Shown one piece after another: positions 23,706 to 29,403 of a stretch of 32,153 nucleotides of DNA (the stretch's first letter is position 1; every line of letters starts with the position of its first letter). The notes below the pieces were generated by a model. It was not told the origin of the DNA. It searched no databases and saw nothing but the letters and a program-made list of their open reading frames with translations. Source of the stretch: Luteitalea sp. (GTDB taxonomy: Bacteria > Acidobacteriota > Vicinamibacteria > Vicinamibacterales > Vicinamibacteraceae); contig WHTT01000075.1 of the NCBI GenBank assembly GCA_009377605.1, positions 1 to 32,153 of the forward strand. The letters are read 5' to 3'. The translations under genes were made by a program, and so were the position numbers.

Positions 23706-24890
23706 GTGACCACGTATCTGTCTCTGGGCGAACGTCTGGCCCCGACGCTTCGTGACTCGTCGGCTCGTCTGCCCGTCGTGATTGGCGGCTGCGGATCGGG
23801 CCGAACCTCCCTCCTCTTCTGCCTTCGCAGTCTCCTCGGCGGTGCGCGCGTCTGCCAGTACGTCGACCTCGAGCGCATCGTGTCGACACCTGAGCGATTC
23901 GTGCATGCGCTCGTCGCGCGGTCGCCGTTCGTAGCGGACGGGATAGCATGCGTCTCATTGCCGCACGCGCCGCGCGAGGCGTTCGACACCGCGGTGCAGT
24001 TCTTCACGAATGCCCGCACGCCCGAGGGCGCGCCGGCAACCTTCCTCGTTGATGAGCTGTTGGAGTTGCGGACCTTCGAGAGCTTCCCCGGCCTCCGCTC
24101 GGTCCTCGACGACCTCTTGCGTACCATCGCACATGGCTTCAACAAATTCGTGTTCACGACGCGGTTCATGGCACGCGCACGGCGTCTCTTGAAACACCTC
24201 GACGAAGTCGAGCTGGTGCCCATGCCGCCGCTCTCCGCGGACTTGATCGGCACCGAGCTGCAAGCCGACGGTGAGCCGCGGCAGGAAGCCGCCGAGCTCG
24301 CGCACGACATCCATACGCTGTGCGACGGGCGTCCCGCCTACGTGGAGGCGCTGAAGCATGCGCTTCAGCGCATGGAAGGGACGGATCCTATCAGCGCCCT
24401 CGTCGCCCTCGTCGAGCCCGGCGGCGAGCTCCACGCGCGCTTGCGCTTCTCGTACGAGCTCCGTTTGCACCGCGCCCGAGGCTACGGCGCACTCAAGGCG
24501 ATTCTCGACGTGCTGGCGCAGCAGGAGCCGCTGACGCTCACCGAGATTGCACACCGATTGCATCGCACGCCAGGCTCGACCAAAGACTATTTGTCCTGGC
24601 TCGAAGACGTCGACCTGCTTTGCACGAAGCGGAAGCGGTACACGTTTGCCGATCCGCTGCTGCGGCCATGGGTGCGTGTCAACAATCAGCCGGAGCTACC
24701 GACCGGCCAAGAGATCGCTCACGAGGTCCAACAGTACGCGCTCGCCCGTCTGACCCACTTCCCGCGACCACCAGCACCCGCCTCCCCGCCCACACCCACT
24801 GCCGTCGCTCATCCTGCCACTCCTCCAGAGGAAGTGCTCGAGCAGCCGATAGGTGTCCGTGGCCCCGGGAACATCATCGACTTCGACTGA
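23706..24890 (+). CDS. P-loop ATPase with winged-helix domain and Arg-type Walker A
   Basis: A 394-residue cytosolic protein from GTG 23706; no good ribosome site is visible. The loop GGCGSGRTS (27-35) fits G-x4-G-K-[TS] except that Lys is Arg33. Walker B is FLVDELLELR (Asp116, Glu117). FNKFVFTTRFMARARRLL (about 145) resembles sensor 1 with an Arg behind it. Residues about 262-325 (ALKAILDVLAQQEPLTLTEI, HRTPGSTKDYLSWLEDVDLL, RYTFADPLLRPWVR) form a winged helix like that of archaeal-type ATPases and STAND-like proteins. The Pro-rich tail is disordered. It could bind DNA or a partner; ATP hydrolysis is doubtful. It is divergent from purA and converges on rnc. Confidence 0.75.
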   Translation: MTTYLSLGERLAPTLRDSSARLPVVIGGCGSGRTSLLFCLRSLLGGARVCQYVDLERIVSTPERFVHALVARSPFVADGIACVSLPHAPREAFDTAVQFFTNARTPEGAPATFLVDELLELRTFESFPGLRSVLDDLLRTIAHGFNKFVFTTRFMARARRLLKHLDEVELVPMPPLSADLIGTELQADGEPRQEAAELAHDIHTLCDGRPAYVEALKHALQRMEGTDPISALVALVEPGGELHARLRFSYELRLHRARGYGALKAILDVLAQQEPLTLTEIAHRLHRTPGSTKDYLSWLEDVDLLCTKRKRYTFADPLLRPWVRVNNQPELPTGQEIAHEVQQYALARLTHFPRPPAPASPPTPTAVAHPATPPEEVLEQPIGVRGPGNIIDFD

Positions 24891-24960: not shown

Positions 24961-25902
24961 CTAGGTGCGTAGCTGCTCGAGCGCGCCGCGTGCCGCTGCC
25001 TGTTCCGCCTCCTTCTTGCTCCGCCCGGTCGCGGACGCGAGCAACCGGCCTTCCGACCAAACCTCCACGGCAAATTCCTTCTCGTGATCCGGTCCGCGCG
25101 TGGCGACCACGCGGTACTCCGGTAGCGCGTGACGCTCTTCCTGCAGCCATTCCTGCAGGGCCGACTTGTAGTCGCCGGTCATCGCGGTCAGCAGCCCTGG
25201 CTGTTTCACCTCGTCCAGCACATCCTGACACTCACGGAGGATGAAGCGGCGCGCAACCTCCAGGCCGCCATCGAGATAGATTGCGGCAATGACGGCTTCG
25301 CACGTGTCCGCGATGAGCGCCTGCTTGTGCCGCCCTCCGCTCTTCTCCTCACCACGTCCGAGCAACAGATACTGGCCGATACCGAGACGCTCACCAATCT
25401 GGACCAGCGCCGCCGTGGAGACGACCGACGCCTTGATCTTCGACTTCTGCCCCTCGTCTGCTTCCGGGAAGTCTCGGAAGATGACGTCCGCTATCACGAA
25501 GCCGAGCACGGCGTCGCCGAGGAACTCGAGCGACTCGTTGTCGACCACGCCGCCCGTGACATCTTCGTGGGCTCGCGAGCGATGCGTGAGCGCATGCTCG
25601 AGCAGACCGCGGTCGCGAAACCGGTAGCCGAGCCGGTGCTCCAGCAGCACGAGTCCGTCGCCGAACGGGACGACGTTGAATCGATCCTCGGCGCTATCGC
25701 GGTACGCCTCGATGAGTCGCTGCGCTTCCGCGGCCTCCTGCTCCGCCACCTCGAGGCGAATGTCTCCGAGCCCGCTGGCGGGCAGCGGCATGACCACACG
25801 CAGCGCCTCGGCTACGCGCCGCACGGCAATGCCATGGGTCTCGAGCAAGCCGGTCACGAGGGTTGCTTCAACGTCCGACGCGGTCCGAAAGACGACCACC
25901 AT
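24961..25902 (-). CDS. rnc: ribonuclease III with N-terminal DUF2007 domain
   Basis: A 313-residue double-strand RNA endonuclease. I use ATG 25902; GTG 25923 is also possible, and neither ribosome site is ideal. Residues 1-70 (VVVFRTASDVEATLVTGLLE, DIRLEVAEQEAAEAQRLIEA) fit DUF2007, a small domain usually found alone. RNase III proper covers about 80-235: signature NESLEFLGD (122-130), catalytic Glu126, Asp130, Asp199 and Glu202 all present. A dsRNA-binding domain follows (about 243-311, DYKSALQEWLQEERHALPEY, GRSKKEAEQAAARGALEQL). It should process rRNA and mRNA. Ordinary RNase III is about 225-250 residues, so the extra domain explains the length. It lies downstream of the phosphatase gene. 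Confidence 0.92.
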   Translation of the reverse strand: MVVVFRTASDVEATLVTGLLETHGIAVRRVAEALRVVMPLPASGLGDIRLEVAEQEAAEAQRLIEAYRDSAEDRFNVVPFGDGLVLLEHRLGYRFRDRGLLEHALTHRSRAHEDVTGGVVDNESLEFLGDAVLGFVIADVIFRDFPEADEGQKSKIKASVVSTAALVQIGERLGIGQYLLLGRGEEKSGGRHKQALIADTCEAVIAAIYLDGGLEVARRFILRECQDVLDEVKQPGLLTAMTGDYKSALQEWLQEERHALPEYRVVATRGPDHEKEFAVEVWSEGRLLASATGRSKKEAEQAAARGALEQLRT

Positions 25903-25943: not shown

Positions 25944-26079
25944 AGGGGTTAAGGGGTCCAGGGATCAAGGGGATGAGGGGTAAAGGAGGTAGCTCACGCG
26001 GCGGGGGGTAACGTCGAACAAAGGCAACGTGTTGCCGCCTCGCCCTCCGCCCCTTGCCCCCTTGATCCCTTGATCCCTC
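25944..26079. repeat. inverted octamer repeat blocks between phosphatase and rnc genes
   Basis: At 25944-25976 the units read AGGGGTTA, AGGGGTCC, AGGGATCA, AGGGGATG-like; at 26056-26079 they read GCCCCCTT, GATCCCTT, GATCCCTC, that is the same octamer reversed. The shared core is GGGATCAAGGGG and its complement. The two blocks could fold into one long stem with an 80-base loop in the phosphatase-rnc gap. The octamer is the same as at 4111-4142. Function unknown; it could be a transcript end or a multiplying repeat. Confidence 0.7.
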
Positions 26080-26081
26080 CC

Positions 26082-28163
26082 CTATCCCACCTTCAGCAAG
26101 ATCATGGTCATGTCGTCGTGCTGATCCGCCTCCCCGACCCAGGTCTTCAGTTCTCCATGAATGTGCTCGCGGAGCTCCTCGGGCGGCAGATGTCGTTGCT
26201 GCTCGAGGAGCTCACAAAACCGTCCCTCACCAAACAGGTCCGCGCCGCCGTTCATGGCTTCCGTGATCCCGTCGGTGAAGAGCACGCACAGGTCGCCCGG
26301 TGCCAGTGGGACGATCACCTCTTCGAGGAGTTGCTCGAACTTCGCAGCAATCCCCTCCAGACGCAGCCCCAGCACGAGCCCGTTCGGCGTCAGGATACGT
26401 GCGCATGACTCGGTCGCGAGCAGATGGATGAGCGGCGTGTGACCCGCCCGCGCGTAGGTGAGCGTGCGCTGCGAGAGGTCCATGATGGCATACGTCATCG
26501 TGATGAAGCTGCGGCTGTCGAGACTCTCGGAGAGGACGCGGTTGACCTCGATGAGCAGCTGCTTGGGTGACGGATACACCCTGCTCAGCGACAGCATGAG
26601 CCCCTTCAGCTCCGCCATGTAGAGGGCCGCCGACGTGCCCTTGCCTGAGACGTCCGCCACGAGCAGGCCGACGCGGTCCTCCGCCAGGACGAAGAAGTCA
26701 TAGTAGTCGCCGCCTACTTCTCGTGCGGGGACGCAGAGTGCGGCCATCGCAACGCCCGGCAGGCGGAGCGGCCCGCGCGGCAGGAGCGACGCCTGGATAT
26801 CGCGCGCGATCCGCAGCTCTTCCTGCAGCCGCTGCTTCTCCGCCTGCTCTCGGAGCAGGTGCTGGATGCTGGACGTCATGGCGTTGAACGAGACCGCCAG
26901 CTCGCCCAATTGATCGCGCGTCCTGACCTCGATGCGGTGCGTAAAGTCGTTCTCGCGAATGCGCTCGGTGGCGATGAACAGTTGATGGATCGCGCCGGTG
27001 ATGGAGCGGGCGAGGGAAAAGCCCATGATGAACGCGACGGCGTAGATCACCAGGAACATGCCGGCCACGACGAGCAGCAACAGGAAGAGCAACTGACCGA
27101 ACGTCCACTGACTGCCGACCCATCGAGCCGCCGCCATGCGCTCGTAGATCTCGAGCGGCCGTGCGCGAAAGAACACTTCCAGCGGCAGGCTCTTGCCCGT
27201 CGTCCAGTCTCGGTACGTGAAGTGTGTGCTCCACGGAATGCGACCGGCGGCATCTCGCGCCAGCGAGGATCTCTCGCGCGGGCGCTCGTCGAGCTCTTCG
27301 AGCCGAATGCCCACCTCTCGTCGTAGCTGCTCGACGGCCCCCTCCCCCATCGGCACGTCGACGATGGCGCAAGAGCTTGGTGAGTCGCTGGGTGCGCAGG
27401 CTGCGGCGCGCGCGACGAGCTGACGCGTCTCGTCGGGGAGGTTGGGGTCGCGGACCGGCAGCTTGTCCGCATAGTGCCCGGCATCCACGACGTGCGCCGG
27501 GATGGTCGTTGGCGGCGGCGCGTGCTCCCAGGTGCCTGCACGGGCACCCTGTCCTGACGCCAGACGCACGACGGCCATGGAGATGTTGGGATACTGGCCT
27601 CTCGACGTCGCCACGTGCCGCGCCAGCACCTCGGCCGCGTCGACATTCGCGTCAGCGGCGATCTCGGCCGAGAGGCTCTGCGCGAGTTGATCGGCATCCA
27701 TCACGCGCTCGTCGAGGCTGCGGAGCACGAGATAGGATCCGACGTTCATCAGGAACAACCAGCCAGCGAAGAGGAAGAACAGCCCGACCAGCAGGACAGG
27801 CACGAGCCCCATCAGCACGTAGGACAGCACGAGGCGCCGCCTCACCCGCCACAGCAGCCGCCGCTGCACGATCAGCCAGAGCCGCACGCCGCCGTACAGG
27901 CCAATGCCGATGAGGAGGAGGTTGGCCACCTTGCGGAGCAGCGCCAAGAGCGCGTTCTCGATGCCGACGAGCTCGAACGGCATCACGAGGATCCGCACCA
28001 CGAGCACCGCGACGAACAACCGCCCGAGCCAGTGCTGGGTGAGGATCTCCCGGACGCGTATCCTCACCGCCTGCGGCGGCTGTGGTTGCAGCCGCACGGG
28101 AAGCAACGGCGGGTCGGCGCGGTGAGACTGGCGGAGTTGTCTGGCGGCGGGTGGGCGGGCCAT
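26082..28163 (-). CDS. membrane PP2C/SpoIIE-type phosphatase with HAMP domain
   Basis: I choose ATG 28163 (MARPPAARQL), since a longer frame would overlap the divergent gene. The 693-residue protein has several helices near the N-terminus (about 47-66, 78-97, 111-142), an outside region of about 200 residues (150-350), another helix pair (355-380), a HAMP domain (383-436, SITGAIHQLFIATERIREND), a short coiled stretch (EKQRLQEELRIARDIQASLL) and a SpoIIE/PP2C domain (460-693). Metal-binding Asp are visible in GGDYYD (484-489), VADVSGKG (502-509) and later DGITEAMN and QHDDMT. It should dephosphorylate an anti-sigma antagonist-type Ser/Thr protein in answer to an outside cue. No such partner is coded nearby. 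Confidence 0.92.
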   Translation of the reverse strand: MARPPAARQLRQSHRADPPLLPVRLQPQPPQAVRIRVREILTQHWLGRLFVAVLVVRILVMPFELVGIENALLALLRKVANLLLIGIGLYGGVRLWLIVQRRLLWRVRRRLVLSYVLMGLVPVLLVGLFFLFAGWLFLMNVGSYLVLRSLDERVMDADQLAQSLSAEIAADANVDAAEVLARHVATSRGQYPNISMAVVRLASGQGARAGTWEHAPPPTTIPAHVVDAGHYADKLPVRDPNLPDETRQLVARAAACAPSDSPSSCAIVDVPMGEGAVEQLRREVGIRLEELDERPRERSSLARDAAGRIPWSTHFTYRDWTTGKSLPLEVFFRARPLEIYERMAAARWVGSQWTFGQLLFLLLLVVAGMFLVIYAVAFIMGFSLARSITGAIHQLFIATERIRENDFTHRIEVRTRDQLGELAVSFNAMTSSIQHLLREQAEKQRLQEELRIARDIQASLLPRGPLRLPGVAMAALCVPAREVGGDYYDFFVLAEDRVGLLVADVSGKGTSAALYMAELKGLMLSLSRVYPSPKQLLIEVNRVLSESLDSRSFITMTYAIMDLSQRTLTYARAGHTPLIHLLATESCARILTPNGLVLGLRLEGIAAKFEQLLEEVIVPLAPGDLCVLFTDGITEAMNGGADLFGEGRFCELLEQQRHLPPEELREHIHGELKTWVGEADQHDDMTMILLKVG

Positions 28164-28200
28164 GAGGCGGCTTGCAAAATGATAACAGAATGTAGTGTAA

Positions 28201-28221
28201 CGTTGGCTAAAGAGGCCAACG
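28201..28221. promoter_or_regulatory. inverted repeat in the divergent promoter gap
   Basis: CGTTGGC (28201-28207) and GCCAACG (28215-28221) pair perfectly around seven bases. It is 30 bases before the GTG of the PLP enzyme and 38 bases before the start of the phosphatase, so either gene could be under it. It fits an operator or a leader hairpin; no riboswitch fold is apparent. Confidence 0.45.
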
Positions 28222-28251
28222 CTGACTGCCAACACCCGAGGACACGCACCC

Positions 28252-29403
28252 GTGAAACTGACACCGCATGCCCGCTTCAGCACGCGCTGCATCCACGCCG
28301 GCCAGGAGCCGGACCCGGCGACCGGCGCCATCATCACGCCAATCTACCAGACGTCGACGTACGTTCAGGAGGCGCTCGGCCGGCACAAGGGGCACGAGTA
28401 TGCCCGCACGAGCAACCCGACGCGCACGGCGCTCGAAGCCAACGTCGCGTCGCTCGAGCGGGGACGCGCGGGCTTCGCCTTTGCGTCGGGCATGGCCGCC
28501 ATCGACGCCGTCGCCACGCTCGTGCAGTCGGGGGACCACGTCCTCGTGACGGACAATACGTACGGCGGCACGTATCGATTGTTCGAGCGCGTGCGCAGCC
28601 GCTGTGGTGTGACGTTCAGCTATGTCGATACCGGCGACCTCGACGCGGTCGAAGCTGCCCTAACGCCGGCCACGCGGATGCTCTTCGTCGAGACACCAAC
28701 CAATCCTATCCTCCGCCTCACGGATCTCGAGGCGCTGTCCGAGCTCGCCCATGCTCACGACGTGCCGGTCGCCGTGGATAACACGTTTGCGAGCCCGTAC
28801 GTGCAGCGCCCGATCGAGCTCGGCGCGGACCTGGTGATCCACAGCACGACCAAATATCTCAACGGCCACAGCGACGGCGTTGGCGGGCTCGTCGTCGCGG
28901 TGCGTGACGATCACATCGAGTGGCTGAAGTTCGTTCAGAATGCGGCAGGGGCCATTCTCGGGCCATTCGATGCCTGGCTGGTCCTCCGCGGCACGAAGAC
29001 CCTCGCGTTACGCATGGCCCAGCACAACATCAATGGCCTGGCGCTTGCCGAGTTCCTGGCCGCACATGCTGGGGTCGAGCGCGTGTATTACCCTGGGCTG
29101 CCCTCCCACCCGCAGCACGATCTCGCCAGCTATCAAATGAACGGCTTCGGCGGCATGATCGCCTTCGATGTCGGCTCGCTCGACAAGGCCAAGACCGTCC
29201 TCGAGCGCGTACGGCTCCTCGCGCTTGCCGAGAGCCTCGGCGGCGTCGAAACCTTGATCTCGCATCCCGCGTCGATGACGCACGCCTCGGTGCCAGCAGA
29301 GCGCCGGCAGGCGCTGGGCATCACCGACAGCCTTCTGCGAATCTCCGTCGGTGTGGAGGACGTCGAAGATTTGAAAGAAGACTTGGCGCAGGCCCTGGGA
29401 TAG
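28252..29403 (+). CDS. Cys/Met metabolism PLP enzyme (cystathionine gamma-synthase/lyase type)
   Basis: A 383-residue fold-type I PLP enzyme, from GTG 28252. Motifs: FSTRCIHAGQEPDPATGAII, YARTSNPTRTALE (Tyr50 and Arg52 contact the cofactor phosphate of the neighbour subunit), SGMAAIDAV, VETPTNPILRL, VAVDNTFASPYVQRP (Asp176), and HSTTKYLNGHSD with the PLP Lys201. The tail SLGGVETLISHPASMTHASV is the substrate carboxylate site. This places it among cystathionine gamma-synthase, gamma-lyase and beta-lyase, which sequence alone hardly separates; the Glu/Ser pattern near the end slightly favours gamma-synthase/lyase. Converges on the lactate permease gene with a one-base gap. Confidence 0.93.
   Translation: MKLTPHARFSTRCIHAGQEPDPATGAIITPIYQTSTYVQEALGRHKGHEYARTSNPTRTALEANVASLERGRAGFAFASGMAAIDAVATLVQSGDHVLVTDNTYGGTYRLFERVRSRCGVTFSYVDTGDLDAVEAALTPATRMLFVETPTNPILRLTDLEALSELAHAHDVPVAVDNTFASPYVQRPIELGADLVIHSTTKYLNGHSDGVGGLVVAVRDDHIEWLKFVQNAAGAILGPFDAWLVLRGTKTLALRMAQHNINGLALAEFLAAHAGVERVYYPGLPSHPQHDLASYQMNGFGGMIAFDVGSLDKAKTVLERVRLLALAESLGGVETLISHPASMTHASVPAERRQALGITDSLLRISVGVEDVEDLKEDLAQALG

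Follow-up and report, generated by a model that had tools for sequence, protein, structure and literature searches.

A DUF2007 domain fused to the N-terminus of class-1 ribonuclease III in the Vicinamibacterales

The window, i.e. the whole 32,153-nucleotide stretch of Luteitalea sp. DNA analyzed here, carries on its minus strand a ribonuclease III gene (rnc) whose reading frame of 313 codons opens with an ATG at position 25902 and closes with a stop codon at 24961-24963. Its features are listed in Table 1. In a search with the full protein, the Pfam profile of DUF2007 (PF09413) matched residues 1-67 with a score of 27.6 bits (E=3.3e-6; cut-off 25.7), covering profile positions 1-65 of 66, and the first 74 residues alone gave 31.9 bits (E=1.5e-7). 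Pfam also placed Ribonucleas_3_3 at residues 98-224 and dsrm at residues 245-311 (67.4 bits), the latter being the C-terminal dsRNA-binding domain (dsRBD) of a class-1 RNase III. The equivalog-level NCBIfam model TIGR02191 (RNaseIII) matched residues 87-311 with 246.6 bits against a cut-off of 166.25. The first-pass annotation had described an RNase III with an N-terminal DUF2007 domain at exactly these coordinates, and both domains indeed exceed their curated cut-offs. A search of this genome returned a single RNase III match, which is the fused one.

Table 1. Positions of the features discussed in the text; the last row refers to loci of family f93, the other rows to the window.
Feature	Position	Strand	Remarks
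DUF2007-RNase III gene (rnc)	24961..25902	-	313 aa, ATG to stop
DUF2007 domain (PF09413), residues 1-67	25702..25902	-	Pfam; 44% mean pairwise identity, 30 homologues
Variable linker, residues 68-86, with semi-conserved VVxLxDEF segment	25645..25701	-	27% identity
RNase III catalytic domain (RIIID), residues 87-226	25225..25644	-	Pfam, NCBIfam; acidic residues E123, E126, D130, E150, E185, D199, E202
dsRNA-binding domain (dsRBD), residues 245-311	24970..25170	-	Pfam dsrm
HAMP + SpoIIE-type PP2C phosphatase gene (putative start codon)	26082..28337	-	upstream of rnc, co-directional
Long hairpin, arms 25952-25980 and 26050-26078	25952..26078	-	SpoIIE-rnc gap; genome-dispersed repeat
f93 tandem RNase III loci	L183 1617-3257; L184 1337-3013; L185 446-2050 (-); L186 1573-3219 (-); L193-L198		

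RNase III is one of the best-studied bacterial nucleases, and its class-1 members are homodimeric, Mg2+-dependent dsRNA endonucleases. By its RIIID signature and its catalytic acidic residues, the fused protein belongs to this class. Seven acidic residues of the E. coli enzyme (E38, E41, D45, E65, E100, D114 and E117) are highly conserved in bacterial RNase III (PMC8708148). When equivalence was assigned via signature motifs, they corresponded here to E123, E126, D130, E150, E185, D199 and E202, none of which varied across 30 fused homologues, so that the catalytic set is complete, as had been noted earlier from the sequence. Over residues 87-311 the protein shares the RIIID, the dsRBD and the catalytic acidic residues with the class-1 enzymes (TIGR02191; E. 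coli, T. maritima 1o0w and Aquifex 1yyk), whereas the N-terminal DUF2007 of about 70 amino acids is lacking in them; among solved structures of the bacterial enzyme, the chains that match best (T. maritima 1o0w, Aquifex and others) align only from residue 86 onward. Bacterial RNase III has been described as a two-domain enzyme (PMC8708148), and although this layout is usual for class 1 rather than strictly defining, the additional N-terminal domain exceeds it. In other words, its nuclease features place the protein among the class-1 enzymes, yet it departs from the two-domain description.

To see how far the fusion extends, we searched 40 genomes, including that of the window; 35 had a match, and in 34 of these the match began at residue 1-3. 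We then used a class-wide sample of 119 genomes, in which a sequence was counted as fused when its profile match ran from position 1-6 through to the end. By this definition, the fused form occurs in 80 of the 81 Vicinamibacterales genomes that have an RNase III and in none of the 29 matching genomes from other orders of the class. The earlier reading would have fallen had no homologue carried both domains, and this order-wide sharing settles that point in its favor. A chance match to DUF2007 is ruled out by the same conservation (34/40 and 80/81 genomes). In a sample of 396 genomes from the phylum, the fused forms scored at least 407 bits; of the matches listed, the best from outside the order reached 317.9 bits and began at profile position 84. 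Among these matches, the fusion was not found in other orders or classes of the phylum. No RNase III match starting before profile position 65 was found in 34 genomes from other phyla, which had been chosen via RNase III similarity, so that independent fusions elsewhere could have escaped this sample. A contig scan of named genomes yielded 80 loci, none of them a fused homologue, and viral contigs scanned with the DUF2007 domain alignment yielded no relative. In a tree of the nuclease part, the fused forms cluster with the unfused forms of sister orders. Only one RNase III of the order is unfused (G024, locus L143). It sits on a long branch among unrelated bacterial enzymes, a placement that suggests transfer-mediated replacement or a misassignment, and not a simple loss. 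Five genomes (G001, G008, G016, G023 and G036) had no RNase III match although they are 90-100% complete, as did three further genomes of the order in the class-wide sample; these cases may reflect a true absence or a gap in the draft assembly.

We also analyzed the composition of the fused domain in the 30 homologues. Mean pairwise identity was highest in the RIIID (69%), followed by the dsRBD (54%), DUF2007 (44%) and the linker (27%), gaps made up 0.6% of the cells of the DUF2007 alignment, and the dN/dS of DUF2007 in close pairs (approximately 0.07-0.37) was similar to that of the nuclease part. The DUF2007 part is under purifying selection, and the DUF2007-RNase III is a real, selected protein design. 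The net charge of DUF2007 lies between -6 and 0 in all 30 homologues. Given that the domain is acidic or neutral, charge-driven RNA binding appears unlikely, and an RNA-binding role was set aside on this ground. Certain positions are specific to the fusion, namely T7 (29/30), S9 (30/30) and, in most sequences, R49; among unfused DUF2007 proteins from this class, T7 and S9 are seldom seen. Such fixed positions fit what would be expected of a specialized version of DUF2007. However, S9 and E12 may form a helix N-cap pair and hence be structural, so that invariance need not mean binding. AlphaFold2 modeled the domain alone with low confidence (pLDDT 52.7), with its elements tentatively arranged as beta-alpha-beta-alpha-beta. 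In a model built from RNase III-only rows, the RIIID and dsRBD were good, but for most of the first 40 residues of DUF2007 the confidence was under 50. No sequence similarity to any solved structure was detected for the DUF2007 region. As for its origin, other DUF2007 proteins of the class are mostly short and separate, whereas here the domain is fused to a nuclease. One stand-alone protein of about 85 aa from a sister order (L216, genome G426; core SVHPFTVGSQGEV) resembles the fused domain, and proteins of this type may have been its source before the fusion.

Next, we examined the neighborhood of the gene. The gene directly upstream contains HAMP and SpoIIE domains. In 29 of 30 loci, a co-directional SpoIIE match immediately precedes the fused rnc, one of these matches being only 29 residues long. 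The SpoIIE-rnc gap is 10 nt or less, or an overlap, in 19 of 29 loci, and in nine loci the SpoIIE stop codon overlaps the DUF2007 start by 4 nt. In a sister-order genome (G101), SpoIIE and rnc are paired but DUF2007 is absent, so the domain probably joined a gene pair that already existed. In the window the gap is 179 nt and holds a hairpin with 29-nt arms (MFE -89.1 kcal/mol, z -5.8), built from a repeat that has 88 further matches in this genome. Hairpins that are likewise strong but unrelated in sequence form in two other loci, with gaps of 122 nt (L027) and 86 nt (L028). The RNase III of E. coli cuts its own 5' UTR (PMC8708148); by analogy, the hairpin of the window could be a self-cleavage site of RNase III, or merely a dispersed repeat. 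On the other side, at 23706-24890 on the plus strand, a 394-aa protein faces rnc; its relatives stand beside nearly all fused rnc loci, and its sole Pfam match is a marginal IclR-type HTH.

Based on these results, we propose that DUF2007 joined the N-terminus of RNase III at the base of the Vicinamibacterales, inside an existing SpoIIE-rnc operon. The fused enzyme would be a class-1 homodimer and a predicted dsRNA endonuclease, with the usual processing of rRNA and mRNA as its probable task, and each dimer would thus bear two copies of the small acidic DUF2007. The domain would bind a protein partner or a small ligand without contacting RNA, and whatever is bound would set the place or timing of nuclease action. 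That DUF2007 is a regulatory docking module of this kind, tuning or positioning the RNase III dimer, is the likeliest of the explanations considered and seems to us an even call. The domain scores, the single RNase III match in the genome, the retention in 80/81 genomes, the identity of 44% against 27% in the linker, the dN/dS, the charge, T7/S9, the HAMP and SpoIIE domains upstream and the SpoIIE overlap all speak for it. Against it, no ligand, partner or structure was found for the domain, and its predicted models were poor. Regulation or localization of RNA cleavage by DUF2007, as read from the sequence, would fit the conservation, the acidity and the sensor-phosphatase operon.

Conservation by itself cannot tell docking from dimer support, and a second explanation deserves attention. 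The yeast enzymes Rnt1p and Pac1p likewise have an additional domain before the RIIID, a likeness of position only. In Rnt1p it carries a dimerization signal required for efficient cleavage of dsRNA, and this homodimer-stabilizing N-terminal domain sets the yeast enzymes apart from the bacterial ones (PMC8708148). DUF2007 is equally placed, with a short linker just before the RIIID, and by analogy it might stabilize the dimer or measure the substrate. However, no sequence relation to the yeast domain is apparent, DUF2007 has no sequence similarity to a solved structure, and its acidic or neutral character in 30/30 homologues disfavors direct contact with RNA. We regard this explanation as possible but rather unlikely.

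The operon invites a further idea, in which DUF2007 links the nuclease to the membrane phosphatase (HAMP-SpoIIE) with which it is co-transcribed, for example as a docking site or a phosphorylation target. The constant position of SpoIIE, its often overlapping stop codon and the near-fixed T7 and S9 would suit such a coupling, but the pair in G101 indicates that the two genes can do without the domain, a SpoIIE match is absent from one fused locus and spans just 29 residues in another, T7/S9 have the simpler structural reading given above, and no kinase was identified. The coupling thus appears quite improbable. About as improbable is that DUF2007 is a passenger, fixed once and kept for solubility or folding rather than for any specific role; its lower conservation relative to the RIIID (44% against 69%) would agree with this, whereas its retention by all but one of the genomes, its constrained sequence and its nearly gapless alignment do not. 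A bolder form of the docking proposal, which we consider unlikely, would make DUF2007 an integral receiver of signals that couples the global cleavage of dsRNA to some cue, possibly via the HAMP-SpoIIE phosphatase. If this were true, the RNase III of the Vicinamibacterales would have signal control built into the enzyme itself.

Finally, an annotation artefact, with translation really starting around residue 75 and DUF2007 being either a false reading or a gene of its own, is highly improbable: GTG codons do occur at 77/78 in 12-15 of the 30 homologues, but the window itself has no start codon there, no internal start codon is conserved among the 30, and DUF2007 is homologous at the protein level with a low dN/dS. 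In most loci, moreover, the SpoIIE gene runs up to or into the start of DUF2007, a spacing from which translation is expected to begin there. We therefore rejected an internal start, which would have refuted the first-pass annotation, on codon conservation, dN/dS and SpoIIE gene spacing, and place the start at DUF2007.

In the literature we searched, nothing treated DUF2007 together with ribonuclease III, and DUF2007 itself, which Pfam names 'Putative prokaryotic signal transducing protein' and whose cut-off residues 1-67 exceed, was rarely mentioned. Within what was searchable, the earlier impression that the arrangement is undescribed therefore holds. A selected third domain throughout an order suggests that the control or assembly of RNase III has been altered across a whole soil lineage. 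In addition, DUF2007, on whose function the literature searched has next to nothing, gains a defined partner activity, dsRNA cleavage, for functional tests.

A different rearrangement of RNase III was observed in another order of the same class. In family f93, the RNase III profile matches repeatedly inside one frame of 535-559 aa, in the order RIIID, RIIID, dsRBD, dsRBD. Ten genomes show the following pattern: in the first RIIID, the equivalents of E123, E126, D130 and E202 are retained, while E150 is replaced by G or A and D199 by N; in the second, R takes the place of E126 and D130, and E150 and E202 are retained where aligned. Because the catalytic losses of the two RIIIDs are complementary, the sequences suggest that the protein is an internal pseudo-dimer with one composite active center. 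By analogy, it is perhaps a nicking enzyme; a similar proposal has been made for a tandem RNase III protein of mimivirus (PMC4402537).
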